64,000 nucleotides of DNA from Tubulanus polymorphus (lineage: Eukaryota > Nemertea > Palaeonemertea > Tubulaniformes > Tubulanidae), in assembly GCF_964204645.1 (NCBI RefSeq), contig NC_134032.1, positions 2,501 through 66,500 of the forward strand, written 5' to 3'. Below the pieces are notes generated by a model, which worked only from the letters and a program-made list of their open reading frames with translations, was not told the origin of the DNA and searched no databases. This document shows, in pieces, positions 1 through 33,800 of the stretch. A program made the translations under genes and the position numbers. Position 1 is the stretch's first letter, and every line of letters starts with the position of its first letter.

Positions 1-443
1 CCCTAACCCTAACCCTAACCCTAACCCTAACCCTAACCCTAACCCTAACCCTAACCCTAACCCTAACCCTAACCCTAACCCTAACCCTAACCCTAACCCT
101 AACCCTAACCCTAACCCTAACCCTAACCCTAACCCTAACCCTAACCCTAACCCTAACCCTAACCCTAACCCTAACCCTAACCCTAACCCTAACCCTAACC
201 CTAACCCTAACCCTAACCCTAACCCTAACCCTAACCCTAACCCTAACCCTAACCCTAACCCTAACCCTAACCCTAACCCTAACCCTAACCCTAACCCTAA
301 CCCTAACCCTAACCCTAACCCTAACCCTAACCCTAACCCTAACCCTAACCCTAACCCTAACCCTAACCCTAACCCTAACCCTAACCCTAACCCTAACCCT
401 AACCCTAACCCTAACCCTAACCCTAACCCTAACCCTAACCCTA
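1..443. repeat. Telomere, (CCCTAA)n
   Basis: Uninterrupted CCCTAA hexamers from the first base. This is the C-rich strand of a TTAGGG telomere, so position 1 faces the chromosome end. The block joins a 353-bp unit inside its tRNA-like T arm (CCTAGGTCCG) with no filler, as if telomere repeats were added to a 5'-truncated insertion. Confidence 0.97.
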
Positions 444-752
444 GGTCCGTGGTTCGAGTCCCGGTCTAGGTGGTGGACTGTGCTTTTCCCGATGCCCCTA
501 ACTCTAATGCCTTCCGACAGGTGGGAGTTAGCCTGATTTCCCGCTGCCCGTGCTCTAGTGGGGAACTGAAAAAGAAATTAATTAATACATCTCGATTAAC
601 AGTCTCGGGGGTTAATCTGAAGAACACACTTGTCATATAATTAATATTCAAATTCAAAAATTGGTTCCCCTAACCTCTATCTCTATACCTAACCTCAGCC
701 TGTGCCAGGAATGAAGGAATGCGAGGTCACAGGAAATGACAGTCGTCGGTCT

Positions 753-824
753 GCCCAGGTAGCTCAACTGGTAGAGCAGTCGTCCGGCAAACGAAAGGTC
801 CGTGGTTCGAGTCCCGGTCTAGGT
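753..824 (+). other. tRNA-like pol III head of the 353-bp unit (Ala-GGC-like)
   Basis: The A box TAGCTCAACTGG and B box GGTTCGAGTCC are both intact. The D stem GCTC/GAGC pairs; the acceptor pairs at 6 of 7 positions with wobbles; the anticodon stem pairs at 4 of 5; the T stem has two mismatches. The anticodon-loop position reads GGC, but position 33 is C rather than T, so this is a tRNA-derived promoter rather than a working tRNA. The same sequence recurs every 353 bp at 1106, 1459, 1812, 2165 and 2518; 444-471 is its truncated 3' end. Confidence 0.75.
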
Positions 825-892
825 GGTGGACTGTGCTTTTCCCGATGCCCCTAACTCTAATGCCTTCCGACAGGTGGGAGTTAGCCTGATTT

Positions 893-1047
893 CCCGCTGC
901 CCGTGCTCTAGTGGGGAACTGAAAAAGAAATTAATTAATACATCTCGATTAACAGTCTCGGGGGTTAATCTGAAGAACACACTTGTCATATAATTAATAT
1001 TCAAATTCAAAAATTGGTTCCCCTAACCTCTATCTCTATACCTAACC
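893..1047 (+). other. PLE-like 3' tail of the 353-bp unit (representative copy)
   Basis: This starts with the block CCCGCTGCCCGTGC followed by TCTAGTGGGG (893-916), identical at 23 of 24 positions to PLE 10254-10277. GGGGAAC (913-919) can pair with GTTCCCC (1017-1023), closing a loop of about 100 nt. After the stem, TAACCTCTATCTCTA is identical to the PLE 3' end and continues into ACCTAACC. Copies lie in all seven units (540 onward in the truncated one). The loop is AT-rich and unrelated to the short loop in the PLE. Confidence 0.85.
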
Positions 1048-2812
1048 TCAGCCTGTGCCAGGAATGAAGGAATGCGAGGTCACAGGAAATGACAGTCGTC
1101 GGTCTGCCCAGGTAGCTCAACTGGTAGAGCAGTCGTCCGGCAAACGAAAGGTCCGTGGTTCGAGTCCCGGTCTAGGTGGTGGACTGTGCTTTTCCCGATG
1201 CCCCTAACTCTAATGCCTTCCGACAGGTGGGAGTTAGCCTGATTTCCCGCTGCCCGTGCTCTAGTGGGGAACTGAAAAAGAAATTAATTAATACATCTCG
1301 ATTAACAGTCTCGGGGGTTAATCTGAAGAACACACTTGTCATATAATTAATATTCAAATTCAAAAATTGGTTCCCCTAACCTCTATCTCTATACCTAACC
1401 TCAGCCTGTGCCAGGAATGAAGGAATGCGAGGTCACAGGAAATGACAGTCGTCGGTCTGCCCAGGTAGCTCAACTGGTAGAGCAGTCGTCCGGCAAACGA
1501 AAGGTCCGTGGTTCGAGTCCCGGTCTAGGTGGTGGACTGTGCTTTTCCCGATGCCCCTAACTCTAATGCCTTCCGACAGGTGGGAGTTAGCCTGATTTCC
1601 CGCTGCCCGTGCTCTAGTGGGGAACTGAAAAAGAAATTAATTAATACATCTCGATTAACAGTCTCGGGGGTTAATCTGAAGAACACACTTGTCATATAAT
1701 TAATATTCAAATTCAAAAATTGGTTCCCCTAACCTCTATCTCTATACCTAACCTCAGCCTGTGCCAGGAATGAAGGAATGCGAGGTCACAGGAAATGACA
1801 GTCGTCGGTCTGCCCAGGTAGCTCAACTGGTAGAGCAGTCGTCCGGCAAACGAAAGGTCCGTGGTTCGAGTCCCGGTCTAGGTGGTGGACTGTGCTTTTC
1901 CCGATGCCCCTAACTCTAATGCCTTCCGACAGGTGGGAGTTAGCCTGATTTCCCGCTGCCCGTGCTCTAGTGGGGAACTGAAAAAGAAATTAATTAATAC
2001 ATCTCGATTAACAGTCTCGGGGGTTAATCTGAAGAACACACTTGTCATATAATTAATATTCAAATTCAAAAATTGGTTCCCCTAACCTCTATCTCTATAC
2101 CTAACCTCAGCCTGTGCCAGGAATGAAGGAATGCGAGGTCACAGGAAATGACAGTCGTCGGTCTGCCCAGGTAGCTCAACTGGTAGAGCAGTCGTCCGGC
2201 AAACGAAAGGTCCGTGGTTCGAGTCCCGGTCTAGGTGGTGGACTGTGCTTTTCCCGATGCCCCTAACTCTAATGCCTTCCGACAGGTGGGAGTTAGCCTG
2301 ATTTCCCGCTGCCCGTGCTCTAGTGGGGAACTGAAAAAGAAATTAATTAATACATCTCGATTAACAGTCTCGGGGGTTAATCTGAAGAACACACTTGTCA
2401 TATAATTAATATTCAAATTCAAAAATTGGTTCCCCTAACCTCTATCTCTATACCTAACCTCAGCCTGTGCCAGGAATGAAGGAATGCGAGGTCACAGGAA
2501 ATGACAGTCGTCGGTCTGCCCAGGTAGCTCAACTGGTAGAGCAGTCGTCCGGCAAACGAAAGGTCCGTGGTTCGAGTCCCGGTCTAGGTGGTGGACTGTG
2601 CTTTTCCCGATGCCCCTAACTCTAATGCCTTCCGACAGGTGGGAGTTAGCCTGATTTCCCGCTGCCCGTGCTCTAGTGGGGAACTGAAAAAGAAATTAAT
2701 TAATACATCTCGATTAACAGTCTCGGGGGTTAATCTGAAGAACACACTTGTCATATAATTAATATTCAAATTCAAAAATTGGTTCCCCTAACCTCTATCT
2801 CTATACCTAACC

Positions 2813-3937
2813 CTAACCCTAACCCTAACCCTAACCCTAACCCTAACCCTAACCCTAACCCTAACCCTAACCCTAACCCTAACCCTAACCCTAACCCTAA
2901 CCCTAACCCTAACCCTAACCCTAACCCTAACCCTAACCCTAACCCTAACCCTAACCCTAACCCTAACCCTAACCCTAACCCTAACCCTAACCCTAACCCT
3001 AACCCTAACCCTAACCCTAACCCTAACCCTAACCCTAACCCTAACCCTAACCCTAACCCTAACCCTAACCCTAACCCTAACCCTAACCTAACCCTAACCC
3101 TAACCCTAACCCTAACCCTAACCCTAACCCTAACCCTAACCCTAACCCTAACCCTAACCCTAACCCTAACCCTAACCCTAACCCTAACCCTAACCCTAAC
3201 CCTAACCCTAACCCTAACCTAACCCTAACCCTAACCCTAACCCTAACCCTAACCCTAACCCTAACCCTAACCCTAACCCTAACCCTAACCCTAACCCTAA
3301 CCCTAACCCTAACCCTAACCCTAACCCTAACCCTAACCCTAACCCTAACCCTAACCCTAACCCTAACCCTAACCCTAACCCTAACCCTAACCCTAACCCT
3401 AACCCTAACCCTAACCCTAACCCTAACCCTAACCCTAACCCTAACCCTAACCCTAACCCTAACCCTAACCCTAACCCTAACCCTAACCCTAACCCTAACC
3501 CTAACCCTAACCCTAACCCTAACCCTAACCCTAACCCTAACCCTAACCCTAACCCTAACCCTAACCCTAACCCTAACCCTAACCCTAACCCTAACCCTAA
3601 CCCTAACCCTAACCCTAACCCTAACCCTAACCCTAACCCTAACCCTAACCCTAACCCTAACCCTAACCCTAACCTAACCCTAACCCTAACCCTAACCCTA
3701 ACCCTAACCCTAACCCTAACCCTAACCCTAACCCTAACCCTAACCCTAACCCTAACCCTAACCCTAACCCTAACCCTAACCCTAACCCTAACCCTAACCC
3801 TAACCCTAACCCTAACCCTAACCCTAACCCTAACCCTAACCCTAACCCTAACCCTAACCCTAACCCTAACCCTAACCCTAACCCTAACCCTAACCCTAAC
3901 CCTAACCCTAACCCTAACCCTAACCCTAACCCTAACC

Positions 3938-3978
<41 letters not shown>

Positions 3979-4214
3979 CCCTAACCCTAACCCTAACCCT
4001 AACCCTAACCCTAACCCTAACCCTAACCCTAACCCTAACCCTAACCCTAACCCTAACCCTAACCCTAACCCTAACCCTAACCCTAACCCTAACCCTAACC
4101 CTAACCCTAACCCTAACCCTAACCCTAACCCTAACCCTAACCCTAACCCTAACCCTAACCCTAACCCTAACCCTAACCCTAACCCTAACCCTAACCCTAA
4201 CCCTAACCCTAACC
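2813..4214. repeat. Internal telomeric repeat block
   Basis: About 1.4 kb of CCCTAA hexamers with only four irregular units: CCTAA around 3088, 3218 and 3673, and CCCTAAA near 3958. It separates the 353-bp array from the PLE and has the same orientation as the terminal telomere. It therefore looks like an older chromosome end later capped by the array. The long Pro-Asn, Leu-Thr and Leu-Gly ORFs here are artefacts of the repeat. Confidence 0.95.
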
Positions 4215-4245
4215 AAATATCAGAAACAGTTAGAAAAATAAACAA

Positions 4246-4850
4246 AAGCGCGATATCGGGAACCGAACCCTAACCGCTAGTACAGACTGGTTGCCTGTCC
4301 CAGGACGATAGAAACCGGTAACCAGTCCACCGCTATTATCTATTTCGAAAATATGCGTCAGCACTGAGATTATATCATAGAAACACCCGAAAAGTATTTA
4401 TTAATCTATTATAAATTTAGAAAGAAAGGGAATCTAGAATAGGTAAGAATATACTCAATTACTAAAACGGCGCGCCTGATCGGGACTCGAACCCGCGGCA
4501 CCCGAATTAAGCTCCGGAGAATACTCGGGAACCGTACCCGCCGCTCCGAAATTAACCGCTAGTACTGACGGGTTGCCGGTGTCCCGCGTTAGATACCGGC
4601 AACCAGTCCACCGCTCTTATTTATTTTGAAAATATGCGTCGGCACTAAGATTATATCGTAGAAACATCTGAAAAGTACTATTGTATCCGTCAAAGATTCA
4701 GAATTAAAAGGAATCCAGAATAGGTAAAAAAACATTTAGAATAGAACTATTCAATTACTAAACGGCGCCTGGTCGGGACTCGAACCCGCGGCACCCTAAT
4801 TAACCTCCGTTTAATCTATAACGTTCGGTCGGGGACCTAACCCGCTACGT
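4246..4850 (-). repeat. Two diverged direct repeats with hairpins and T-arm-like boxes
   Basis: 4270-4516 and 4558-4806 are diverged copies of one unit about 288 bp apart. Each has an inverted repeat that stays paired despite divergence (GACTGGTT with AACCAGTC at 4285-4327; GGTTGCCGG with CCGGCAACC at 4575-4610). Each also has a block resembling a tRNA T arm on the minus strand (GGGTTCGAGTCCCG, plus strand near 4489-4502 and 4773-4787). Weaker B-box-like copies lie near 4255, 4530 and 4830. No full tRNA fold is visible. This is either the PLE 5' region or an older SINE-derived repeat. Confidence 0.6.
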
Positions 4851-5978
4851 CCTAATTAACTATTATCGTATCTACGCGCCAACTCTTGGAACATACTCTA
4901 TATAGATCCGGGTGTCAAGTTTCAAATTTCTCTAAAACAGACAGTTTATTTTCGGATAACAATTCTAATGAGATCGCTCAAAAGTATTAGTAGCTATATT
5001 CAAAAACCGCACTATAGGTTGTAGAAGTATAAGAAGTTTATAGGATAAATACTAGTCCACGGACATCAATCACTGTTTACGATTCACTCCTAATTAGTGA
5101 CCGATCGGCCACCTGCGCCTCTTGACTAATTATCCGACACAATTCTATACAAAATCGCAGTTACGACGCCTTCAAACTCATCAGTTTTTTTCAAAGAACA
5201 CAGCCCAATATTCCCGATTCAAAAAGAGTTTTAAAATCACGTATATATTTCAACCTTCGGATTAAAGAAGAGATCATAGTGTTTTTGAACCACTCAAACT
5301 ACGCAAGCTTAAACCGATTTACTGAATACCCGCGCTCCGGTCTGAATATATTTGTCACATGTTCAAGTTCACATAGCTTTACTCGATCCTAATAACTCTA
5401 AATAAGCGTAGTTTATCTAATAGAATTATATTTAAGAACTTAGAATTAAAACAGACGTATTAGTAAGACATTTCTATCAAAACTCGTCACCCATAATTAG
5501 GGCTAATTAACCACCCGCGCTCACTCAGTAATTTAGATCTTACGGGTTATAACTTCCTACTAAATCGCCGACGCCGCGCTGTCTAATTCATCCAATTTTC
5601 GGTAGAATACCGCGTAGATATTTCAAAATCCGCTCTTTAAAGCTTTAGAATACGGAGAAAACTTGATTAACTAAGAACCGGATTTCACCATTTACGACTA
5701 TTTAGTAAACACGCGTATATCGGAATACGCCTCGGCCGCGCACCGCTAATTAACGCATCTAAACTAATTAGGAATTAAGCAATTTTGAAACTGAACTCGG
5801 ACATATTTCGAACATTCCGGTTCACGTATATTAATAATACATATTCTAGATTTCTCTTTATAGAAAACACTTTGAGTATTTATTAGGTTATATCGAAATA
5901 AACTTTTCAATTCTATATTAGACACGCCGTTCTTTAGATCTTTAGAACTATACATCAAAGCAAACTATTCAACAGCTA
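4851..5978. other. Non-coding 5' region, no gene seen
   Basis: AT-rich sequence with scattered CG-rich islets next to TAATTA (near 5095, 5495 and 5735), suggesting an older, strongly diverged tandem repeat. No ORF with family features, no RNA gene and no clean repeat boundary could be recognised. Confidence 0.5.
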
Positions 5979-6084
5979 GATCAAGGGCCATAATTAGTGC
6001 TGTTTTCTAGTCACTCTGGATCAAAGGCATAATTAGTCAGACCCCTAGTTTGTCTATTAGCTTGATCACAGAAGTACAATTAGT
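5979..6084 (+). repeat. Three promoter-proximal repeats (GATCA...AATTAGT)
   Basis: Three imperfect copies of a roughly 20-bp motif start at 5979, 6019 and 6064, spaced 40-45 bp. The first reads GATCAAGGGCCATAATTAGT. They lie 70-180 bp upstream of the TATA box of the PLE ORF1, where a repeated protein-binding site would be plausible. Binding is inference. Confidence 0.55.
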
Positions 6085-6155
6085 CTAGATCACAAGGTCT
6101 CATATGGTCACTTAACTTCTAACTCAAATACTGTTCACTTGTTGCGCGCTGCGTG

Positions 6156-6163
6156 TATAAAAA
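6156..6163 (+). promoter_or_regulatory. TATA box of the PLE
   Basis: TATAAAAA lies 31 bp upstream of the first ATG of ORF1 (6187), with TTCAGC at 6181-6186 as a possible initiator. This spacing puts transcription start almost on the ATG, so the leader would be very short, or translation begins at the second ATG (6238). Confidence 0.6.
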
Positions 6164-6186
6164 CCCGTGTCTAATCCTAGTTCAGC

Positions 6187-7749
6187 ATGATTCCTGCACT
6201 GACACTGACGAAGGCAACCTCGCCGAAATATCTGTCAATGGAGCGATCTACTCGAAAGAAGAAACGACCACCAGCTGAGAAGACCAGCAAGGGCGGAGGA
6301 CGCCCTGAGCGACACCAGCAACCCGGGATGTCGCCGAAAACGTATTATAGAGCTCTTCAAGTGGCGCACCACCTTGCCCAGTTGAGCTCTGGTCCGAAAG
6401 CGATTCGGAGGAAGAAGGACCATCTGAAGATGTTCCTGCGGCCGGCGGCTTGCACCGAAGCAGTAACGGTGCAGCTGCACGCTGCCGCGGACGTCTGGAT
6501 GGAGACAGTTTCGAAAGAGCTGACCATCCATTACGCTGCCACATTTGTCGAGCTAATGGGTGATCCTCTGCCGGACTGTCTATCAGCACAGGATGTCGCC
6601 CTGACATGGGCCCGGAGGAATTTCGGCTCCCGTCTGAGCCCCGGAACGATCCGGCTTTTCAACATCGCGCTGGATTTGCGGTCGAAATTCCGCGGTCAGG
6701 CTCTGTCTGACAAACTCAGAAATGTCCTATCTAACCCACCTTCTTCCCCTTCTCATTTCAGGTCACACCACCAGGAGGCACCCACGGAGCCGAAGATTCG
6801 TCCGCCGCCGAGACCGAGCCGGAAGATTCGAAAGCCCGCGACGCCGAGGACGCCTGCACCAACCGCAGCCGCGCCCGCCGCGCCCACAGCGCCTCCTTCT
6901 TTTTCTGATTCCAGGTCACCGAGAAGCTACGCGGATGTCACCAGGACGCCACCAACCAGAATGGCGCCACCACCGAGAAGTCCGATGCCGACGCCGCCGC
7001 CGCCGCCACCAAGAAGTCCGACGCCACCGAGAAGTCCGACGCCGCCGCCTCGAAACCCGACGCCGCCGCCGCCGCAGAGAACGCCGACCGCACCAACCAG
7101 CAGTCCGACGCCGTCTCTCTCTTCTTCTCTTTCCAGCTCTCCGTCTCATTACAGGTCACCAGGGCGCCTACTGCCAGCGCGAAGTCCGACGCCAACACCG
7201 AGACCGATGGCGCCCCAGGAAGTTCGCCGTCATCCGAATACGGGTCGGAAGAAACAGGATTGGAGTCTGCCACCAACCCGGCGACCCATTCTGGTGATTG
7301 GTGACTCAAATCTGAGTAACATCACATCAAGCCGCCGTCCGGATGACGTCCAGATCGAGAGCTTCCCCGGCTGCAAGATAGCTCATCTCGCCGACCTGAT
7401 CGATGCTGTACCGGAGCGCCGAGATCGCCCGGATACGGTGATCATCAGCGTCGGAATCAACAACCGCGACAACAACTTCGAAGCGACCGCCAGGAAGACC
7501 ACACAGCGCCTGATCAACGCCGCAGTCAAGAAGTATCAGCACTCGTTCGTCCACTTCGTTCAACTCAACACGACCCGCGAACACCAGCAGTTCGCCCGGA
7601 AGTTCAACGAATTCCTCGAGATTCACGACGACGTCACCGCGATACCACCCATCGATGATCGACGCTTCAGAGTTGTTGGTGACGGGATCCACTGGAACCG
7701 TGGTACAGCTAACACCCTGCTGGACCACTGGCTCAGTGGTTTAAACTAA
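6187..7749 (+). CDS. PLE ORF1: basic/proline-rich protein with C-terminal SGNH (GDSL-type) hydrolase domain
   Basis: 520 codons. The N-terminal part is basic (KKKRPP near residue 21) and residues 40-180 are globular-looking. Residues 185-360 are Pro/Ser/Arg low-complexity sequence with repeated S-R-S. The C-terminal 150 residues hold SGNH-hydrolase blocks: GDSN at 372-375 (nucleophile Ser), VGIN near 422-425 (block III) and DGIH at 499-502 (block V Asp and His). GDSL/SGNH esterases are known in ORF1 of some LINEs (CR1 type) and in some telomeric PLEs; their role there is unsettled. The linker contains CAG|GTCAC polypyrimidine-AG motifs at 6761, 6914 and 7154, all in the same codon phase. ATG 6187 is the first in frame; Met18 at 6238 is an alternative. 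The gene ends in a -1 frameshift signal leading to ORF2. Arg-rich ORFs in the other frames here are shadows of the low-complexity linker. Confidence 0.85.
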   Translation: MIPALTLTKATSPKYLSMERSTRKKKRPPAEKTSKGGGRPERHQQPGMSPKTYYRALQVAHHLAQLSSGPKAIRRKKDHLKMFLRPAACTEAVTVQLHAAADVWMETVSKELTIHYAATFVELMGDPLPDCLSAQDVALTWARRNFGSRLSPGTIRLFNIALDLRSKFRGQALSDKLRNVLSNPPSSPSHFRSHHQEAPTEPKIRPPPRPSRKIRKPATPRTPAPTAAAPAAPTAPPSFSDSRSPRSYADVTRTPPTRMAPPPRSPMPTPPPPPPRSPTPPRSPTPPPRNPTPPPPQRTPTAPTSSPTPSLSSSLSSSPSHYRSPGRLLPARSPTPTPRPMAPQEVRRHPNTGRKKQDWSLPPTRRPILVIGDSNLSNITSSRRPDDVQIESFPGCKIAHLADLIDAVPERRDRPDTVIISVGINNRDNNFEATARKTTQRLINAAVKKYQHSFVHFVQLNTTREHQQFARKFNEFLEIHDDVTAIPPIDDRRFRVVGDGIHWNRGTANTLLDHWLSGLN

Positions 7750-7776
7750 GTATTAGTGAGACCAACGGGTCCACTA
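7740..7776 (+). promoter_or_regulatory. -1 programmed ribosomal frameshift signal
   Basis: TTTAAAC at 7740-7746 is phased X XXY YYZ in the ORF1 frame (TTA AAC) and is followed at once by the ORF1 stop TAA (7747-7749). After a 7-nt spacer, TAGTG (7754-7758) pairs with CACTA (7772-7776) and GACC (7760-7763) with GGTC (7768-7771), giving a 9-bp stem with one bulged A and an AACG loop. A second hairpin (GTTAA with TTAAC, 7784-7804) follows. The -1 frame is open from 7740 through ORF2. The heptamer, phase, spacer and stem all match the known -1 frameshift pattern; activity is inferred. Confidence 0.85.
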
Positions 7777-10205
7777 TTGGTGAGTTAAATCAACCGGAAT
7801 TAACCAATGCTTCTCTGATTTCTTCCATTTCCAGGTCCGACGAACACGAAGAACCGGCACCAAACCGAGCGCGACGCGATCCGGTCACCGCTCTCGGGAG
7901 CCCGGTGGTCAACCTCACACGTTCACTCCGCCTAAGTCCGGCGCAACATCAGCTACTCCGAAAGGGCCTCACTTATTGCCCGACTCCAAAAATCGGTTCT
8001 GATGCCGCCGCGACCGAGCGCACCAAGGGAGTGTGCCGATTCAACCGGCTAGTGAAACTCGACCATCACTTCCGAGACAAACCGGACCGCGAGGCTCCGC
8101 GTTTCCGTCTGCCCAGCAGTTGGGCTCCGGATGAAATAGAACCAGTAATCGCCGGGTTCTGCAACGACGCGCACGAATTGGCTCAACAAACCAGGGATAC
8201 GCGTCGCGTAAATGATAACCTCACTAAACAGGAACGCGAAGCCCTCCAGCAGCTGCGTGACAACACTAATATTGTCATCAAAGCCGCCGATAAGGGTTCC
8301 GCTACGGTTATCATGGACCGCGACGACTACGTCCACGAAGCCATGCGCCAACTAGCCGATCTCGAGTATTATCAGCCGCTGCAGCAACCGATCTTCGAAC
8401 AGACCGGGGAAGAAATTCGCGAAATCATCGAAAATATGGCTCGACGAAAAATCATCCCGCTAAAAACCGCCGAATATCTATTACCGCCCGATAATCCGAA
8501 ACAGAGGCAGTTCTATCTGCTTCCCAAAATCCATAAAGAACGCGAGAAGTGGACGGTACCCGATCGCGTACCGCCGGGGAGACCGATCGTCTCCGACTGC
8601 GGCTCCGAAACCTACGAAATTTCGGAATGGATCGACTACTATTTGCAGCCGATCGCCCGCGGTCACCCGTCGTACGTCAAAGATACCAACCACTTTCTAG
8701 ATATTTTGGCCGGTAAACAATTTAGCGCCGATGCGTTACTCGTCACCATGGACATCGATTCGCTCTACACCAACATCCCCCACGAAGAGGGTATCGCCAG
8801 CATCCGACAAGCTCTCCGAGATAACCCGAACCCGGGACGCCCGGATGCCGAGCTGCTGAAACTACTCGAAATCAGCCTGAAGAAAAATGACTTTAACTTT
8901 AACGAAAACACATATTTACAGGTAAAAGGTACCGCAATGGGTAAGCGTTTTGCTCCTTCTTATGCCAATATCTTTGTAGCCGAATGGGAAAAAGAAGGTC
9001 TGTCCAGAAGCGAACTCCAACCATCGCTATACGCTCGGTTCATCGACGACATCTACATAGTTTGGGAACACGGCCGCGAAACGTTGATGCAATTCATCGA
9101 CGTCCTACAAACAGTGAGCCGATCCATCAAACTCAAGTTCGAAATCAGCGACACCAGCGTCAACTTCCTGGACGTAACCACTTTCAAAGGCCCGCGATTC
9201 GAGACAAGTGGCACAGTAGACACCAAAGTCTACTTCAAACCAACCGATTCGCATCAATTACTACATCGATCCTCGTTTCACCCTAAACACACGTTTTCCG
9301 GTATAGTTAAAAGTCAAATTCTCCGGTTCCGGCGCATCTGCAATAACGATTCGGACTTACACGCAGCGTCCGGAACCGTCCTTAAAGTACTCAGAGGTCG
9401 TGGCTACAAAGACCGCGAACTGCGACACATCAAAAGCCAAGCTCTACGGCACCACGCCGAACGAGATCTACGAGAACAACAACGGGCCGACGAACCGCCG
9501 AAAAAGCGTTTACCGCTTATCTTACCTCACTCCGAAGCCAACCGAACCCTAGCCCGTAACATCCGAACCAGATTTACGGAACTGGCTACGGCCACCGGCC
9601 GGTCGGACGAGGTAACCACGGTCACCGCCTACACCAAGCACAAGAGTCTCAAAGATCTCCTAACTTCGTCGCAGCTCAAACCCACGGAGCCACCCCCTCC
9701 CCGAGTCCCCTCTTCACCGCATCGTAACAGAAATACTTCCGTTGTTTCCAATTCTTCTATTTCCAGGTCTACTCAAAGAACTCCGTCAACCCGACGTCGA
9801 GGCACCGAGAAATGCAGAACACCGAGATGTCGTACGTGTCCACTCGTCCGAGAAACAACCGTTTGCCGCAGCCACAACAAAATGCACGCGATCCGCAGCA
9901 CAATTAATTGCGCGACCCGTGAAATTGTATACTGCATCGAATGCACCAAGTGCAACATGCTGTACGTCGGCCAAACCGGAATGTCTCTACGAGAACGCGT
10001 CACTCATCACGTCTCACGCATCAGAACGAAGAATTCGACTCCAGTCTCGGACCACTTCAACCAAGTCGACCACACCCGCGAACACTTTCGGGTGTACGGT
10101 CTCCAACACCTACCAGGCTCCACGAGACCGATCCGCGAAGCAGCCGAACAAGACTGGATACGACGACTCGACACGAACACGCCCCGAGGCATGAACGTCC
10201 CGTAG
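7746..10205 (+). CDS. PLE ORF2: reverse transcriptase with C-terminal GIY-YIG endonuclease
   Basis: 819 codons in the -1 frame relative to ORF1, first codon after slippage at 7746. No ATG precedes the RT core (a GTG at 7905 is only the first alternative start), so expression by frameshift fusion of about 1,340 residues is the best reading. RT signatures: AADKG at 8284, LPKIHK at 8520, MDIDSLYTNIP near 8748, GTAMG near 8929, the catalytic FIDDI at 9039-9053, and the HPKHT/FRR thumb-side region to about 9340. A basic linker follows, then a Cys cluster CRTPRCRTC near 9812 typical of PLEs. The GIY-YIG nuclease has VYC at 9927, YVG at 9963-9971 and R/E residues to about 10178. PLE RTs prime from DNA ends or nicks and are related to telomerase. 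No stops or frameshifts were seen, so the copy could be active. A second CAG|GTC motif pair lies at 7834 and 9766. Confidence 0.92.
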   Translation, partial: LSISETNGSTIGELNQPELTNASLISSISRSDEHEEPAPNRARRDPVTALGSPVVNLTRSLRLSPAQHQLLRKGLTYCPTPKIGSDAAATERTKGVCRFNRLVKLDHHFRDKPDREAPRFRLPSSWAPDEIEPVIAGFCNDAHELAQQTRDTRRVNDNLTKQEREALQQLRDNTNIVIKAADKGSATVIMDRDDYVHEAMRQLADLEYYQPLQQPIFEQTGEEIREIIENMARRKIIPLKTAEYLLPPDNPKQRQFYLLPKIHKEREKWTVPDRVPPGRPIVSDCGSETYEISEWIDYYLQPIARGHPSYVKDTNHFLDILAGKQFSADALLVTMDIDSLYTNIPHEEGIASIRQALRDNPNPGRPDAELLKLLEISLKKNDFNFNENTYLQVKGTAMGKRFAPSYANIFVAEWEKEGLSRSELQPSLYARFIDDIYIVWEHGRETLMQFIDVLQTVSRSIKLKFEISDTSVNFLDVTTFKGPRFETSGTVDTKVYFKPTDSHQLLHRSSFHPKHTFSGIVKSQILRFRRICNNDSDLHAASGTVLKVLRGRGYKDRELRHIKSQALRHHAERDLREQQRADEPPKKRLPLILPHSEANRTLARNIRTRFTELATATGRSDEVTTVTAYTKHKSLKDLLTSSQLKPTEPPPPRVPSSPHRNRNTSVVSNSSISRSTQRTPSTRRRGTEKCRTPRCRTCPLVRETTVCRSHNKMHAIRSTINCATREIVYCIECTKCNMLYVGQTGMSLRERVTHHVSRIRTKNSTPVSDHFNQVDHTREHFRVYGLQHLPGSTRPIREAAEQDWIRRLDTNTPRGMNVP
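7811..7834 (+). other. Recurrent polypyrimidine-CAG motif (3' splice-site-like)
   Basis: A pyrimidine run ending in TTTCCAG before GTCC. Equivalent motifs end at 6761, 6914, 7136, 7154, 9766 and 10247. Five of them are read as S-R-S in the same codon phase. They resemble animal splice acceptors, but no convincing donors are paired with them, and using one here would not remove the ORF1 stop. Their meaning is open. Confidence 0.45.
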
Positions 10206-10253
10206 ACCGCCTCACTACAACAATTAACTCTCACTACTTTTTTACAGGGATAA
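10206..10253 (+). other. PLE 3' UTR, pyrimidine-rich part
   Basis: About 50 bp between the ORF2 stop and the block shared with the 353-bp unit. It ends in CTACTTTTTTACAGGG, another polypyrimidine-AG motif. Confidence 0.6.
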
Positions 10254-10317
10254 CCCGCTGCCCGTGCACTAGTGGGGTCTCCAAACCTTCGGTTTGGTCC
10301 CCTAACCTCTATCTCTA
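10254..10317 (+). promoter_or_regulatory. Structured 3' end of the PLE, shared with the 353-bp unit
   Basis: CCCGCTGCCCGTGCACTAGT leads into GGGG (10274-10277), which can pair with CCCC (10299-10302) around a perfect 7-bp hairpin CCAAACC-TTC-GGTTTGG (10281-10297). TAACCTCTATCTCTA (10303-10317) then runs into ACCTAACCC. The tandem unit keeps the outer block, outer stem and tail but has a different loop. The conserved parts are candidates for RT recognition. The CCTAACC end could anneal to the TTAGGG overhang. Confidence 0.8.
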
Positions 10318-10672
10318 AACCTAACCCTAACCCTAACCCTAACCCTAACCCTAACCCTAACCCTAACCCTAACCCTAACCCTAATTCATTAACCCTAACC
10401 CTAACCCATTAACCCTAATTCATTAACCCTAACCCTAACCCTAACCCTAACCCTAATTCATTAACCCTAACCCTAATTCATTAACCCTAACCCTAACCCA
10501 TTAACCCTAATTCATTAACCCTAACCCTAATTCATTAACCCTAACCCTAATTCATTAACCCTAACCCTAATTCATTAACCCTAACCCTAATTCATTAACC
10601 CTAACCCTAATTCATTAACCCTAACCCTAATTCATTAACCCTAACCCTAATTCATTAACCCTAATTCATTGT
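10318..10672. repeat. Proximal telomeric block with TTCATT variant repeats
   Basis: CCCTAA hexamers at first, then a regular alternation of CCCTAA with CCCTAATTCATTAA, plus some CCCATTAA. It is the centromere-side flank of the PLE. The ordered variant pattern differs from the near-pure telomere on the other side, so this block is older. Confidence 0.9.
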
Positions 10673-10880
10673 AATTAATCGTAATCATGTGTGAAATTAG
10701 AGAATCGGATAATTAGCGTAATCCTATTAACCTTAATCGTAATCCCATTAACCCTAGCTTGTAATTAATCGTAATCATGTGTGTAATTAGAGAATTGGAG
10801 GATTAGCCTAATCCCATTAACCCTAGCTTGTAACTAATCATAATCATGAGTGTAATTAGAGATTTAGAGAATTAGTGAAG
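10673..10880. repeat. Degenerate subtelomeric repeat, three copies
   Basis: Three diverged copies of a 60-90 bp unit starting near 10669, 10758 and 10826. Each contains TTGTAATTAATCGTAATCAT, GTAATTAGAGAATT and, in the first two, ATCC(C/T)ATTAACC. It may have grown from decayed telomeric repeats. Confidence 0.6.
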
Positions 10881-10902
10881 TACTAGTGAAAATCTGTCAA
10901 CC

Positions 10903-10977
10903 ACCGACACCGGGACTCGAACCACGGATGTCTCGCTTGCCAGGCAGGCGATGCTCTACCACTTGAGCTATCGGGGT
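10903..10977 (-). other. tRNA-like relic (Ala-GGC-like), minus strand
   Basis: On the minus strand, an A box TAGCTCAAGTGG and a B box GGTTCGAGTCC are intact and the D stem GCTC/GAGC pairs. The anticodon loop can be read CTGGCAA (GGC), as in the 353-bp unit. The acceptor stem pairs poorly and about three extra bases lie between the D and anticodon arms, so a working tRNA is unlikely. It is probably the head of an old SINE; no SINE body was recognised beside it. Confidence 0.5.
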
Positions 10978-11687
10978 GACTTGCTGGTTTTCACCTTTGA
11001 TTCGTTGTTAGCCTTCTGGCACAGACTAGTGTTAGGATCACAGATAGAGGTTTTGTGGCTCTTGACCATTAATAACGCACCGAATTATTAACTCATTGAC
11101 TATTATTCAACCCTTTTCATAGGTTGTTCACTTGCGTAAGGGTCTTTTCTCTCTGCCTGAAACATTTCAGGCAACTACGATCATCCTTAAGGGAATTAAA
11201 ACAAGTTTTAAGGGGTTATATTTTCAGGTCTGGACAGAGTATTTTCGCGTATTTTCACCTATCTCCGACACTCATTTTCGCAACCTAGGCTCAATGGAAG
11301 CCCGCACCCGAGGTTTTAATGCTTCTATACATACTATAGGGCCCCTTCTAAATACCTGACATGTTTCAGGGCCCTGAGCATCTACAAAGGGTCTTGTGAC
11401 CCCCTGAAATGTGCTCGCACGGCCGTCTGAGACCTCTGGTAAATCCGTGCGTCAAAAGGTAGAAAGGGGTGACTTGCAGGTCTAGGGTCCTTTTATAAGA
11501 TTTGCACACTTTGATTAGACCCTCCCCTAGGTCACTGAGAAGTTTCAGAGCCCTAGGGCCACTATTAAGGTCGTAGGAGATGTTAGAAGCGTCATTTTTC
11601 ACGTTTTTCATGTCTCATGTGTATTTTGGCGTATTTTGACACTGATTTTTCGCGTTGGGTCCGCCCAGACCCAACGGACCCCCACGA
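10978..11687. other. Subtelomeric repeat DNA, no gene
   Basis: No ORF has family features. A motif like CTGANANGTTTCAGRGCCCT recurs near 11147, 11355 and 11545 and resembles phrases at 25920-26130, such as GAAGTTTCGG and TTTTAAGGG. This suggests the same subtelomeric family on both sides of the BEL/Pao insertion. Confidence 0.4.
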
Positions 11688-11755
11688 CCCATCTTTTCAG
11701 ATTGAATCCATCAACTTCAGGAAAATAAGTAGCCAGAAAATTCGGAATCTTTCAA
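11688..11755 (+). repeat. Isolated partial monomer of the 102-bp satellite
   Basis: ACCCATCTTTTCAGATTGAA through GAATCTTTCAA matches the satellite at 30801-44216 nearly base for base over about 67 bp, 19 kb from the main array. It stops exactly where the candidate BEL/Pao LTR begins (TGTCATGAC), so the LTR element probably inserted into a monomer. Confidence 0.75.
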
Positions 11756-11961
11756 TGTCATGACTGTTATGCTATATTTTACATTTCAATATCTTATAAG
11801 TTACAGTCTATGGTTTTGTATACAGTATTCTCAAGTTGGCATCCAGTCATACCACAAACTATTCCCAATCAACTGTTAAATGTTAACCAACCATATAATC
11901 ATGTACGCTATATACAGTCCTCTGAATAAAGCCGTTAGTCAGTAGAGTTCATATTACTACA
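11756..11961 (+). repeat. Candidate 5' LTR of the BEL/Pao element
   Basis: Starts TGT and ends ACA, contains CTATATACAG near 11908 and a poly(A) signal AATAAA at 11925-11930, and lies upstream of Gag. The sister LTR is missing, so it cannot be confirmed by self-comparison. Confidence 0.5.
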
Positions 11962-12037
11962 CCGTGTTGGTCGTTTACTTTGGGTCCGCCGCATTTCAGT
12001 ACATTTGGTCCCTCGAGCCTCTACTAGTGATTTGGAA

Positions 12038-13210
12038 ATGGAAAAAATGGAGAAACTCAAAGCGTCACGTGCAACCCATCGATGACAATTTACTAAGCTG
12101 AAGTGATGTGACCAGTCGTTGCGTGAGGAAAATCTAGTAGAAGGTACGTCATTTTTGTAAAATATGAAATTCAAAATTTGAACTCTTAGAAAGTTTGGAC
12201 TGTCAAATCTTAGAGGAAGCGCATGTGTCTATCACATCTTATATAGACTTGGTTGTCGAATTCGACGAGTATATTTGAGAACGGAAGCTTGAGGTGGACA
12301 CATTGGCTTTCAGTGAGCTGGCATTAAGGATGAAAGCTTCAACCACCAATTCACAAAATTCGAGGGGCGCTAATAGTCAGTCGATTAACTTACCGAGTCT
12401 TAAGAATTCATGTATTTAGTGGTCAGTTGTTGGAGTGTCAATCCTTCTGGGATCTGTTTATTGTCACAGTGGATATCAGACCAGATTATTAGATATTGAA
12501 AAGTCCAGCCACCTTTTGTGTTATTTAAGCGGTGAGGCCAAGACTGCAGTAGAAAGGTTATCGTTGTCGGCAACGAATTATCAGTCAACAAAGAAATTAC
12601 TTTTTTCACGTTATGGTCAACCACACAAAATTGCGGAGGCGCACTTGATAGCGTTAACAAACAGATTTGCACCGTCCATCGTCTGATAAGAAATCACTTC
12701 GTTCGTTTTATGACAGTATAGAAGTTTATGTTCGTTCGTTAGGCCGACATAAAAATTCTTACGAGACATTACTAGTACCAGCAATCTTATCGAAATTACC
12801 AAATGTTATCAAGGCCAATCTTACTCGGATTAATGTAAAAATGAATGGTAATTGGATGATTATTGCAAGCATTGTTAACTGAAATTTTTAATTTTGGATT
12901 TTTGCAGCGATTCACCCCTACCAGAAGAACGTGGGCACTACACCTCTACACTTCGCACCAATACAACTCGAGATGTCCGGAGATACAGCTGTCTTTACTG
13001 TGGTGGTAACCATACCCCCACTCTCAGCGATAAGGTCACGGATGTCAACAAAAGGCTTCGAAAAGTTCGTGAGTCTAATTTGTGTTTTAATTGTCTCGGC
13101 AAACACCGGCTTAATTTGTGTCGTTCAAAAATCGTTGTAAAAAATGTTCGCAAAATCATCATACGCCTTTGTGCGGTGCCGTGTTTTCGAATCGTATTAA
13201 TCCTGTGAAG
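12038..13210 (+). pseudogene. BEL/Pao Gag with zinc knuckles (broken)
   Basis: Coding signal begins at ATG 12038 (MEKMEKLKAS) in the coiled-coil-like N-terminal region, with stops by 12105. The core Gag domain (DUF1759 type) is recognisable at 12480-12880: HLLCYLSGEAKTAVERLSLS and, after a frameshift near 12670, LRSFYDSIEVYVRSLG and AILSKLP. After a further break, 12985-13180 encodes a zinc-knuckle region with CLYCGGNHTP, CFNCLGKHRLNLC and (other frame) CKKCSQNHHTPLC. Gag would package the element RNA. At least three frameshifts are needed to connect the pieces, so no product is expected. Confidence 0.8.
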
Positions 13211-27654: not shown

Positions 27655-30023
27655 TGGCCTTTGTGCACGGATCGAGTTCTGTAACTGTTGGCCTTTGTGC
27701 ACGGATCGAGTCCTCTAACTGTTGGCCTTTGTGCACGTATCGAGTCTTGTAACTGTTGGCCTTTGTGCACGGATCGAGTCCTCTAACTGTTGGCCTTTGT
27801 GCACGTATCGAGTCTTGTAACTGTTGGCCTTTGTGCACGGATCGAGTCCTCTAACTGTTGGCCTTTGTGCACGGATCGAGTCCTGTAACTGTTGGCCTTT
27901 GTGCACGGATCGAGTCCTCTAACTGTTGGCCTTTGTGCACGTATCGAGTCTTGTAACTGTTGGCCTTTGTGCACGTATCGAGTCTTGTAACTGTTGGCCT
28001 TTGTGCACGGATCGAGTCCTCTAACTGTTGGCCTTTGTGCACGGATCGAGTCCTCTAACTGTTGGCCTTTGTGCACGTATCGAGTCTTGTAACTGTTGGC
28101 CTTTGTGCACGGATCGAGTCTTGTAACTGTTGGCCTTTGTGCACGTATCGAGTCGATCCTGTAACTGTTGGCCTTTGTGCACGGATCGAGTCCTCTAACT
28201 GTTGGCCTTTGTGCACGGATCGAGTCCTGTAACTGTTGGCCTTTGTGCACGGATCGAGTCTTGTAACTGTTGGCCTTTGTGCACGTATCGAGTCGATCCT
28301 GTAACTGTTGGCCTTTGTGCACGGATCGAGTCCTCTAACTGTTGGCCTTTGTGCACGGATCGAGTCCTCTAACTGTTGGCCTTTGTGCACGGATCGAGTC
28401 CTCTAACTGTTGGCCTTTGTGCACGGATCGAGTCTTGTAACTGTTGGCCTTTGTGCACGTATCGAGTCGATCCTGTAACTGTTGGCCTTTGTGTACGGAT
28501 CGAGTCCTCTAACTGTTGGCCTTTGTGCACGGATCGAGTCCTGTAACTGTTGGCCTTTGTGCACGGATCGAGTCCTGTAACTGTTGGCCTTTGTGTACGG
28601 ATCGAGTCCTGTAACTGTTGGCCTTTGTGTACGGATCGAGTCCTCTTACTGTTGGCCTTTGTGCACGTATCGAGTCCTCTAACTGTTGGCCTTTGTGCAC
28701 GGATCGAGTCCTCTAACTGTTGGCCTTTGTGTACGGATCGAGTCCTCTTACTGTTGGCCTTTGTGCACGTATCGAGTCCTCTAACTGTTGGCCTTTGTGC
28801 ACGTATCGAGTCTTGTAACTGTTGGCCTTTGTGCACGGATCGAGTCCTCTAACTGTTGGCCTTTGTGCACGTATCGAGTCCTCTAACTGTTGGCCTTTGT
28901 GCACGTATCGAGTCCTCTAACTGTTGGCCTTTGTGCACGGATCGAGTCCTCTAACTGTTGGCTTTTGTGCACGTATCGAGTCCTCTAACTGTTGGCCTTT
29001 GTGCACGGATCGAGTCCTCTAACTGTTGGCCTTTGTGCACGTATCGAGTCCTCTAACTGTTGGCCTTTGTGCACGGATCGAGTCCTCTAACTGTTGGCCT
29101 TTGTGCACGGATCGAGTCCTGTAACTGTTGGCCTTTGTGCACGGATCGAGTCCTCTAACTGTTGGCCTTTGTGTACGTATCGAGTCCTCTAACTGTTGGC
29201 CTTTGTGCACGGATCGAGTCCTCTAACTGTTGGCCTTTGTGTACGGATCGAGTCCTCTTACTGTTGGCCTTTGTGCACGTATCGAGTCCTCTAACTGTTG
29301 GCCTTTGTGCACGGATCGAGTCCTCTAACTGTTGGCCTTTGTGTACGGATCGAGTCCTCTTACTGTTGGCCTTTGTGCACGTATCGAGTCCTCTAACTGT
29401 TGGCCTTTGTGCACGTATCAAGTCTTGTAACTGTTGGCCTTTGTGCACGGATCGAGTCCTCTAACTGTTGGCCTTTGTGCACGTATCGAGTCCTCTAACT
29501 GTTGGCCTTTGTGCACGGATCGAGTCCTCTAACTGTTGGCCTTTGTGCACGGATCGAGTCCTGTAACTGTTGGCCTTTGTGCACGGATCGAGTCCTCTAA
29601 CTGTTGGCCTTTGTGCACGGATCGAGTCCTCTAACTGTTGGCCTTTGTGCACGGATCGAGTCCTGTAACTGTTGGCCTTTGTGCACGGATCGAGTCCTCT
29701 AACTGTTGGCTTTTGTGCACGTATCGAGTCCTCTAACTGTTGGCCTTTGTGCACGGATCGAGTCCTCTAACTGTTGGCTTTTGTGCACGTATCGAGTCCT
29801 CTAACTGTTGGCCTTTGTGCACGGATCGAGTCCTCTAACTGTTGGCCTTTGTGCACGGATCGAGTCCTCTAACTGTTGGCCTTTGTGCACGGATCGAGTC
29901 TTGTAACTGTTGGCCTTTGTGCACGGATCGAGTCCTCTAACTGTTGGCCTTTGTGCACGGATCGAGTCCTCTAACTGTTGGCCTTTGTGTACGGATCGAG
30001 TCCTCTAACTGTTGGCCTTTGTG
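27655..30023. repeat. 34-bp minisatellite, about 70 copies
   Basis: Unit GGCCTTTGTGCACGGATCGA followed by GTCCTCTAACTGTT. Variants are few and mixed: GGATCG/GTATCG, CCTCT/CCTGT/TTGT, TGCACG/TGTACG, and a 4-bp GATC insertion in three units (28150-28480). Blocks of several units recur, indicating unequal exchange. There are no unique spacers, so it is not a CRISPR array. The unit resembles GTCCTCTAACCGGTTGACCT at 26414, so it probably grew from a tRNA-like repeat. The HKGQQL ORFs are by-products. Confidence 0.92.
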
Positions 30024-30800: not shown

Positions 30801-33800
30801 TTGAAAATTGGGCTAACCCGGTATAAGATAGAATTCATCATCTTTGGGACCTTATTTAGCAAGAAAAATCTGTATCTTTCAGCCCATCTACTCGAAATCA
30901 GTTCAGTTTACCTTAACCTATCATTCCAGATCGAATCCATCATCTTCAGGAGCATTTAGTAGCCAGAAACTTCTTAATCTTTCCACCTATCTATTTGAAA
31001 TCAGTTCAATGCGCCTTAACCCATCTTTTCAGATTGAATCCATCATCTTTAGAACCAAAAGCAGCCAGAAAATTCTGAATCTTTCCACCTATCTATTTGA
31101 AATCAGTTCAATGCGCCTTAACCCATCTTTTCAGATTGAATCCATCAACTTCAGAAGGATAAGAAGCCAGAAAATTCTGAATCTTTCAACCAATCTATTG
31201 AAAATCAGTTCAGTACACCCTAACCCATCAATTAAGATAGAATTCATCATCTTCAGGACCGTATTTAGCAAGAAAAATCTGTATCTTTCAACCCATCTAT
31301 TCGAAATCAGTGCTGTTTACCTTAACCAATCATTTCAGATCGAATCCATCATCTTCAGGAGCATTTAGTAGCCAGAAAATTCTTAATCTTTCCACTTATC
31401 TATTAGAAATCAGTTCAATACGCCTAAACCCATCTTTTCAGATTGAATCCATCATCTTCAGAAACATAAGGAGCCAGAAAATTCTGAATCTTTCCTCCTA
31501 TCTATTTGAGATCAGTTCAATACGCCTTAACCCATCGTTTCAGATTGAATCCATCATCTTCAGAACCAAAAGCAGCCAGAAAATTCTGATTCTTTTAACC
31601 TATCTATTTGAAATCAGTTCAATACGCCTTAACCCATCGTTTCAGATTGAATCCATCATCTTCAGAACCAAAAGCAGCCAGAAAATTCTGATTCTTTCAA
31701 CCTATCTATTTGAAATATGTTCAATACGACTTAACCCATCTTTTCAGATTAAATCCATCATCTTCAGAACCAAAAGCAGCCAGAAAATTCTGATTCTTTC
31801 AACCTATCTATTTGAAATCAGTTCAATACGACTTAACCCATCTTTTCAGATTGAATCCATCATCTTTAGTACCAAAAGCAGCCAGAAAATTCTGATTCTT
31901 TCAACCTATCTATTTGAAATCAGTTCAATGCGTCTTAACCCATCTTTTCAGATTGAATCCATCATCTTCAGAACCGAAAGCAGCCAGAAAATTCTGAATC
32001 TTTCCACCTATCTATTTGAAATCAGTTCAATACGCCTTAACCCATCTTTTCAGATTGAATCCATCAACTTCAGAAGGATAAGAAGCCAGAAAATTCTGAA
32101 TCTTTCAACCAATCTATTGAAAATCAGTTCAGTACACCCTAACCCATCAATTAAGATAGAATTCATCATCTTCAGGACCGTATTTAGCAAGAAAAATCTG
32201 TATCTTTCAACCCATCTACTCGAAATCAGTTCAGTTTACCTTAACCTATCATTTCAGATCGAGTCTATCATCTTTAGTACCAAAAGCAGCCAGAAAATTC
32301 TGATTCTTTCAACCTATCTATTTGAAATCAGTTCAATGCGCCTTAACCCATCTTTTCAGATTGAATCCATCATCTTCAGAACCAAAAGCAGCCAGAAAAT
32401 TCTGATTCTTTCAACCTATCTATTTGAAATCAGTTCAATACGCCTTAACCCATCTTTTCAGATTGAATCCATCATCTTTAGTACCAAAAGCAGCCAGAAA
32501 ATTCTGATTCTTTCAACCTATCTATTTGGAATCAGTTCAATGCGCCTTAACCCATCTTTTCAGATTGAATCCATCATCTTTAGTACCAAAAGCAGCCAGA
32601 AAATTCTGATTCTTTCAACCTATCTATTTGAAATCAGTTCAATACGCCTTAACCCATCTTTTCAGATTGAATCCATCATCTTTAGTACCAAAAGCAGCCA
32701 GAAAATTCTGATTCTTTCAACCTATCTATTTGAAATATGTTCAATACGACTTAACCCATCTTTTCAGATTGAATCCATCAACTTCAGAAGGATAAGAAGC
32801 CAGAAAATTCTGAATATTTCAACCAATCTATTGAAAATCAGTTCAGTACACCCTAACCCATCAATTAAGATAGAATTCATCATCTTCAGGACCGTATTTA
32901 GCAAGAAAAATCTGTATCTTTCAACCCATCTATTCGAAATCAGTGCTGTTTACCTTAACCAATCATTTCAGATCGAATCCATCATCTTCAGGAGCATTTA
33001 GTAGCCAGAAAATTCTTAATCTTTCCACTTATCTATTAGAAATCAGTTCAATACGCCTAAACCCATCTTTTCAGATTGAATCCATCATCTTTAGTACCAA
33101 AAGCAGCCAGAAAATTCTGATTCTTTCAACCTATCTATTTGAAATCAGTTCAATGCGCCTTAACCCATCTTTTCAGATTGAATCCATCATCTTCAGAACC
33201 AAAAGCAGCCAGAAAATTCTGATTCTTTCAACCTATCTATTTGAAATCAGTTCAATACGCCTTAACCCATCTTTTCAGATTGAATCCATCATCTTTAGTA
33301 CCAAAAGCAGCCAGAAAATTCTGATTCTTTCAACCTATCTATTTGGAATCAGTTCAATGCGCCTTAACCCATCTTTTCAGATTGAATCCATCATCTTTAG
33401 TACCAAAAGCAGCCAGAAAATTCTGATTCTTTCAACCTATCTATTTGAAATCAGTTCAATACGCCTTAACCCATCTTTTCAGATTGAATCCATCATCTTT
33501 AGTACCAAAAGCAGCCAGAAAATTCTGATTCTTTCAACCTATCTATTTGAAATATGTTCAATACGACTTAACCCATCTTTTCAGATTGAATCCATCAACT
33601 TCAGAAGGATAAGAAGCCAGAAAATTCTGAATATTTCAACCAATCTATTGAAAATCAGTTCAGTACACCCTAACCCATCAATTAAGATAGAATTCATCAT
33701 CTTCAGGACCGTATTTAGCAAGAAAAATCTGTATCTTTCAACCCATCTATTCGAAATCAGTGCTGTTTACCTTAACCAATCATTTCAGATCGAATCCATC

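Follow-up and report, generated by a model that had tools for sequence, protein, structure and literature searches.

Short tRNA-bearing elements appear to share both ends with a telomeric Penelope-like element in Tubulanus polymorphus

Introduction

In SINE-LINE tail-sharing pairs, a short tRNA-headed element carries the 3' end of an autonomous retroelement, and SINEs have been paired with LINEs. Penelope-like elements (PLEs) are relatives of telomerase. The elements of Tubulanus polymorphus described here resemble the SINE-LINE pairs in that a tRNA-bearing short element carries the 3' end of an autonomous partner, but this partner is a GIY-YIG PLE, sharing extends to the 5' end, the tRNA lies 58 bases inside the unit and the units form tandem arrays.

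Other described systems are compared here as far as excerpts of the cited papers go. Athena and the Terminons of bdelloid rotifers are alike in their PLE reverse transcriptase, in a 3' telomeric complement behind a fold and in 5' truncation by telomeric repeats, as well as in head-to-tail arrays and esterase ORFs (PMC6431247). Terminons are described as carrying reverse-complement telomeric repeats behind a hammerhead fold, without an endonuclease and possibly with GDSL ORFs, and as mostly 5'-truncated by telomeric repeats (PMC6431247); GDSL ORFs of bdelloids appear in a further source (PMC5408684), and priming from chromosome ends is attributed to PLEs that lack the endonuclease (PMC3846280). 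Whereas Athena and the Terminons have a hammerhead and no linked endonuclease, the Tubulanus PLE encodes GIY-YIG within its reverse transcriptase protein and no hammerhead was found; the excerpt mentions no tRNA-bearing partner of the rotifer elements (PMC6431247). Endonuclease-bearing PLEs of the Neptune group and others, compared by domain layout, likewise have a reverse transcriptase and GIY-YIG with a cysteine-rich stretch between them (seen by eye in Tubulanus; reported for Neptune in PMC3846280) and form partial tandems, but the Tubulanus PLE differs in its telomeric targeting and CCTAACC tail.

Animal non-LTR retrozymes are alike in their ~300-bp tandem units and in the service that PLEs are proposed to provide as mobilisers of these non-autonomous elements, a proposal based on co-existence, tandem form and hammerheads (PMC7229834); they are, however, defined by the hammerhead ribozyme, whereas none was found in the Tubulanus units, which bear a tRNA and have their termini in common with a named PLE. 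SART and TRAS of the silkworm are also retroelements within telomerase-type repeats and require their 3' UTR for targeting, but they are LINEs, not PLEs, and the excerpt mentions no tail-sharing SINE (PMC4700185). The short Penelope elements of Heliconius are similarly non-autonomous and Penelope-related, with no mention of a tRNA or of telomeres in the excerpt (PMC6685494). A search of the open-licence literature, mostly at title level and with subscription literature largely outside it, found no description of end sharing between a PLE and a SINE. With the Tubulanus element, an endonuclease-bearing PLE would join the retroelements known to be added to chromosome ends, and recognition by a PLE protein becomes testable, because the shared termini are explicit, several families supply natural variants, and filled and empty sites can be compared.

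Results and discussion

The window, a stretch of 64,000 nucleotides (C8:2501-66500), was analysed together with the 267.8-Mb genome in 77 contigs (C numbers denote contigs and L numbers loci). The initial annotation had described a telomeric 353-bp unit with a tRNA head and the tail of a neighbouring PLE. This unit was confirmed as one truncated and six complete identical copies with a tRNA-Ala-like head and a PLE-type tail, in a tandem array at window 443-2812 (period 353, 6.7 copies, 100% matches; Tandem Repeats Finder). To the left of the window, the contig reads N and then CCCTAA. The features discussed below are as follows.

1..443, no strand: telomeric CCCTAA repeats, distal, abutting the truncated first unit (sequence, repeat finder)
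444..694, plus strand: SINE-A unit, 5'-truncated, beginning at about unit position 102
695..2812, plus strand: six full-length SINE-A units of 353 bp, all identical, with starts at 695, 1048, 1401, 1754, 2107 and 2460
2460..2474, plus strand: 5' terminal motif TCAGCCTGTGCCAGG, common to the PLE (last unit shown)
2518..2590, plus strand: tRNA-Ala-like head (last unit; one per complete unit; Rfam, ARAGORN pseudogene mode)
2658..2681, plus strand: 3' block common with the PLE, 23/24 (last unit; BLAST)
2784..2812, plus strand: tail common with the PLE, 28/29, ending CCTAACC (last unit; BLAST)
2813..4214, no strand: CCCTAA repeats separating the SINE-A array from the PLE
4215..10326, plus strand: PLE copy, 5'-truncated (on C4, complete units in tandem measure 6.25-6.35 kb)
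6187..7749, plus strand: PLE ORF1, with a weak SGNH/GDSL-esterase-like stretch
7713..10205, plus strand: PLE ORF2, with reverse transcriptase and GIY-YIG; stop-to-stop length 830 codons
10254..10277, plus strand: PLE 3' block CCCGCTGCCCGTGCACTAGTGGGG
10303..10326, plus strand: PLE tail TAACCTCTATCTCTAAACCTAACC, continuing into CCCTAA
10842..11075, minus strand: SINE-C part (one unit's tail, the junction, and the next unit's 5' motif and tRNA-like head)

The Rfam tRNA model matched all six complete SINE-A units at 47.3 bits (gathering threshold 29) and scored 43 bits in a second family, SINE-B. The A box (TAGCTCAACTGG) and B box (GGTTCGAGTCC), earlier called intact, are indeed whole by eye. ARAGORN in pseudogene mode called tRNA-Ala(GGC) in units A and B and no tRNA in unit C; it called none with bacterial settings, and none in units A, B and C with standard settings. 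The tRNA begins 58 bases inside the SINE-A unit, not at its 5' end, and in A and B a TTTT stands at unit position 143, 11 bases past the tRNA. Classical pol III transcription of a SINE is doubtful because of these 58 preceding bases and the TTTT behind. The name 'SINE' fits elements that are short, non-coding, interspersed and provided with a partner's 3' end, but not the expectation of a pol III head at the 5' end, where a 58-base leader stands instead; we would therefore call the 353-bp units SINE-like, by size, tRNA and partner tail though not by head position. Unit sizes are 353 bp (A), about 336 bp (B) and about 298 bp (C, from tail spacing on C5), and older copies are dispersed.

A close alternative, to which we give somewhat less than an even chance, is that the units are rebuilt non-autonomous PLEs, which kept both ends, acquired a tRNA gene and filler, and are transcribed like the PLE, with the tRNA as a passenger or processing signal. 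The sharing of both termini, the internal position of the tRNA, the TTTT that follows it after 11 bases in A and B, and the mention of short non-autonomous Penelope elements in butterflies (PMC6685494, in excerpt) would suit such an origin, whereas outside the two ends the unit and the PLE match over just 11-13 bases (BLAST) and the A and B boxes of the tRNA are retained in several families. A PLE derivative with a captured tRNA would need the PLE as helper just as a SINE would, and would move in the same way, only origin and transcription being different. Our preferred reading, which we regard as probable from the features set out here, takes the 353-bp unit as a tRNA-bearing, non-autonomous retroelement, trans-mobilised by the adjoining PLE and one of at least three such families in this genome. 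The minus strand of the PLE 5' part matches the B-box region of the tRNA head at window 4481-4493 (13/13) and ~4775-4786 (11/11).

The partner PLE carries reverse transcriptase and GIY-YIG in one ORF. The former was recognized above cut-off (PF00078, E 1.3e-7) and the latter just under the Pfam cut-off of 22.6 (PF01541, E 3.8e-4, 21.1 bits); the best NCBIfam match of ORF2 was a group II intron reverse transcriptase (E 2e-7) and its best homologue the uncharacterized protein LOC141902624 of T. polymorphus. Judging by ORF2, which is open across all 830 residues at 99-100% identity in 48 of the 54 copies scored (among 924 candidates), the PLE copies are recent. The esterase-like stretch of ORF1 is a weak match (Pfam E 0.047; PDB 4c1b E 0.09); PLEs with esterases have been reported previously (PMC3905857, in excerpt). 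The PLE forms head-to-tail tandem or partial tandem copies, most neighbouring 3' ends on C4 lying 6.25-6.35 kb apart. On C34 the spacing is 5.09 kb, and the copies are 5'-truncated with CCCTAA between them. Arrays could be placed at six chromosome ends (left on C4, C8, C9 and C10, right on C7 and C10), and there the 3' ends, whether of PLE or SINE, point inward.

BLAST of SINE-A against the PLE 3' end gave 28/29 matches at unit positions 325-353 and 23/24 at 199-222. The second of these had been described as a block before GGGG; the 23/24 match stands, and the GGGG lies inside the 24-base block. The identical 15-mer TAACCTCTATCTCTA was likewise recovered, with its PLE copy at 10303-10317, and occurs 162 times in the 267.8-Mb genome and never as the reversed control. 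The 3' parts aligned with a local score of 56, against a maximum of 27 in 500 shuffles, and the 3' scores of A, B and C were each equalled by 0 of 500. The longer 3' module CCCGCTGCCNGTG had 191 matches genome-wide, against 4 for its reversed control. When 20 of these sites were opened, 17 proved to be PLE 3' ends and 3 to be unrelated, so that the tail belongs to a module typical of PLE 3' ends rather than being a subtelomeric sequence unrelated to the PLE. Sites with tail only were a minority (L001, L008, L087 and L129), read as extreme truncations or expansions. They include a single 19-bp tail in a host repeat (L129, C9:9791291), seven tails in tandem (L008, C2:8928457-8928585) and a larger minisatellite derived from the tail (L087, C9:257028-257675).

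A GGGG/CCCC stem, also proposed earlier, is present in the lowest-energy folds of the PLE, SINE-B and a short 3' end D, and absent from those of SINE-A, the SINE-C copy used and one old PLE copy; as a shared fold it is plausible in these predictions. The 3' end D was seen once (L081, C32), as GGGGG, a short loop, CCCCC and a variant tail, and its source element was not found. The tails of SINE-B and SINE-C depart from the window-type PLE tail at several bases. No second PLE family was identified among the 54 of 924 candidates scored, and three further module sites (L088-L090), candidates for a PLE with SINE-B's own tail variant, proved to be unrelated DNA.

The 3' tail was the sole sharing proposed before; the 5' end is shared as well. 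Since the window's PLE is 5'-truncated, its 5' counterpart TTAGCCCGTGCCAGG was read in L064 and L068. In fixed register, the first 15 bases of PLE and SINE-A match at 13 positions, and the following 27 are at chance. Tandem junctions read CCTAACC and then TTAGCCCGTGCCAGG (PLE), TCAGCCTGTGCCAGG (A) or CCGACCAGTGCCAGG (B), whereas in SINE-C CCTAAC and two bases precede, for example, TAGCCTGTGCCAGG. Over 14 anchored bases, the PLE matched A, B, C (L093) and L076 at 12, 10, 12 and 12 positions, and over the next 27 at 4, 4, 4 and 8. L076 starts at the motif, its 5' end being joined to DNA with no tail ahead of it. Without anchoring, none of 500 shuffles equalled the 5' score of A, while 6 equalled that of B and 8 that of C; because this similarity is weak for B and C, the case for 5' sharing depends on the fixed register and on the number of families that show it. 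That the 5' motif is generic was considered and rejected: AGCCNGTGCCAGGA had 42 matches and the control 0, one opened match (L095) being unrelated DNA. By eye, a string like GCCNGTGC occurs in both the 5' motif and the 3' block of the PLE and of SINE-A, B and C, the SINE-B versions being GCCAGTGT in the 3' block and ACCAGTGC at the 5' end; its repetition may possibly represent a duplicated protein-binding site.

Two more tRNA-bearing families, B and C, were recognized, so that at least three have both PLE-type ends in this one genome, where repeat counts are lower bounds. At 100% identity, SINE-A gave 41 rows on C66 (15), C10 (17), C8 (7) and C34 (2), which form five arrays (C8, C66, C34, C10:10402-15977 and C10:35787-36025), all joined to CCCTAA-type repeats. 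The telomeric setting first claimed thus holds for all 41 rows, but divergent relatives lie at non-telomeric sites. Those with a 3' end have the PLE-type tail (L004, L007, L071, L075 and L085), not that of another LINE, while L072 ends just short of the tail and several others have no 3' end or were not read that far. The arrays are truncated distally near unit position 28 (C34), 74 (C10), 102 (C8) and 116 (C10:35787), and that of C66 extends past the contig start. Their inner neighbours are a long CCCTAA tract and then the PLE (C8), 17 repeats and then SINE-B (C10), differently cut PLE pieces (C34 and C66) and degenerate CCCTGAGA repeats (C10:35787). The simplest reading is that the arrays arose by separate events; spread by recombination followed by terminal erosion and healing could also explain the variable truncation.

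SINE-B has a spacing of 335-337 bp and 81% identity to A. Its 43 rows at 99-100%, each spanning at least 200 of 291 query bases, lie on C65 (26), C32 (5), C10 near 14.06 Mb (4), C10 left (2), C7 (4), C4 (1, interstitial) and C9 (1). The arrays on C7 (L080) and at 14.06 Mb on C10 (L073) are far from a contig end and have N runs on their distal side, so this distance is maybe a matter of scaffolding, and both are possibly chromosome ends wrongly joined. At interstitial L074 (C4:9664446-9664565), an inverted SINE-B fragment adjoins a SINE-B copy. SINE-C lies in subtelomeric DNA of C8, at 89% on C9, C16 and C51, and in older copies elsewhere; the subtelomeric DNA that contains it is common to the ends of C8 (window 10640-11500) and C9 (L070, C9:1-3500).

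Some non-telomeric PLE and SINE copies also occupy the same host repeats. Among 28 copies of host repeat 2, whose empty site (L125) reads CCCTTAACTCTAAACCTAACCCGAACCC, five are filled at one point, four by the PLE (L110, L116, L117 and L128) and one by SINE-A (L085), where part of the target DNA is missing. Host repeat 1, with 94 copies and the empty site GGGAACTAAACCTAACCCTAAACCTAACCACTAGTCCCC (L120), holds a tail in four: PLE (L107 and L113), a bare tail (L129) and seven tails (L008); SINE-B at L074 sits in a degenerate copy. These filled-target counts are lower bounds, from 42 hand-chosen tail places among 100 listed of 162, omitting the left-end arrays of C4, C8 and C10 and repeats inside tail arrays. 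Flanks were compared by BLAST among 19 PLE and 11 SINE entries (10 of them true flanks, the L071 entry being its second unit; L094 had no usable flank), 2 tail-only entries and 8 control stretches. Pairs with E<0.01 were PLE-PLE 25, PLE-SINE 19, PLE-tail 5, SINE-tail 2, SINE-SINE 1 and tail-tail 1, against control-control 2, SINE-control 1 (the L071 entry) and PLE-control 0. The best PLE-SINE pair was L085 (SINE-A) with L117 (PLE), at 88% over 239 bp (E 2e-84), and many other pairs were short telomere-like strings. Capture of target DNA was rejected as the whole explanation of the tail, TAACCTCTATCTCTA and the 24-base block being missing from the empty site; for its last 14 bases, pairing with a target or origin from one is conceivable, because the empty host repeat 2 site (L125) has CTCTAAACCTAACCC.

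In a junction census with tails de-duplicated by position within submitted loci, SINE-A tails led into their own start (36) or telomeric repeats (5), and PLE tails into their own start (11), telomeric repeats (17) or other sequence (15: 11 interstitial, 4 in telomeric regions); 8 tails fell in no class. SINE-B tails, counted without most of the C65 array, led into their own start (19), telomeric repeats (4), a short telomeric stretch and then PLE (1) or interstitial sequence (1). Among the 66 complete head-to-tail junctions counted, none ran directly from a PLE tail to a SINE start or the other way round; each joined units of the same family. This weighs against free jumps from one RNA to another and favours growth at the DNA level or a template that is multimeric or circular. 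Partial head-to-tail dimers occur at the non-telomeric SINE copies L071, L094 and L096. Excerpts of one paper call such dimers typical of PLEs and describe reverse transcription that begins internally in a lizard PLE (PMC11167929). At L083, a PLE copy breaks off within the ORF2 region, at a CCTAA of its own, and is followed by CCTAACCCTAACCCT leading to SINE-A, as though a telomeric end had acted as primer at this point. The sole SINE-PLE chimera (L079), in which a SINE-B array, near the boundary of leader and tRNA, is fused directly with the ORF1 region of the PLE, could have formed by recombination.

Homotypic junctions would also be expected if the units were a telomeric satellite, whose arrays spread via recombination, break-induced replication or circles and whose likeness to the PLE is a relic. 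Units are identical or nearly so within and between arrays, no long array was seen anywhere but close to a chromosome end or on a short unplaced contig, and the opened non-telomeric copies are single or partial dimers. We nevertheless consider this very unlikely, as divergent scattered copies sit at host repeats that the PLE also uses, with empty sites, and as neighbours and truncation points vary among arrays; processes of the satellite type may well explain array length.

Unit size and homotypic tandem arrays likewise recall retrozymes, and PLEs have been proposed as mobilisers of animal retrozymes (PMC7229834, in excerpt): RNA of the tandem repeats would self-cleave and circularise and then be copied by the PLE enzyme. 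This we hold to be very improbable, the known hammerhead classes being absent by Rfam to E 10 from window 1-13000 and six loci, and the string CTGANGA..GAAA from dimers of A, B and C and from the PLE 5' region; a ribozyme of a new kind might still be present. Two Rfam scans to E 10 and one string search revealed no hammerhead in the units, at their junctions or in the 5' region of the PLE, and the idea of one at the junctions was rejected. Within the coding part of the PLE, the hammerhead-like string is present at two places (~0.3 expected, calculated by hand), one of them beside the ORF1 start (core at window ~6205-6228), without an Rfam match. The first has a mispaired stem, and the strings are not fully dismissed.

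Returning to mobilisation by the PLE, we think it likely that at least three tRNA-bearing satellite families depend on one endonuclease-bearing PLE via two short termini and jointly build TTAGGG-bearing chromosome ends, natural variants outlining the RNA signals and a primer rule (CCUAACC on GGTTAGG). The signals in cis would be a 5' motif of about YTAGCCNGTGCCAGG and a 3' module of CCCGCTGCCNGTGC..GTGGGG, a family-specific loop, CCCC and a tail ending CCTAACC. The RNA end CCUAACC would pair with GGTTAGG, either in a chromosome's G-rich terminal overhang or at a telomere-like interstitial site, and the PLE reverse transcriptase would lengthen the GGTTAGG-bearing DNA end toward the RNA 5' end. 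The unit would often be copied repeatedly, synthesis ending in a truncated copy, after which TTAGGG would be added by telomerase or repair. The sequences speak for this model through shared ends, polarity, truncation, homotypic junctions and common target repeats with empty sites. From these we infer that the PLE protein recognizes the SINE RNAs, that annealing is the primer rule, and that arrays arise either from RNA that is multimeric or circular or by later growth of the DNA; recombination may have enlarged them.

Other tandem repeats lie further inside the window. A 34-bp array at 27655-30023 has 69 copies with 94% matches, and a 102-bp satellite at 30858-44218 has about 131 copies. Satellite-like DNA akin to the latter flanks PLE 3' ends on C43 and C4 (L043 and L063).
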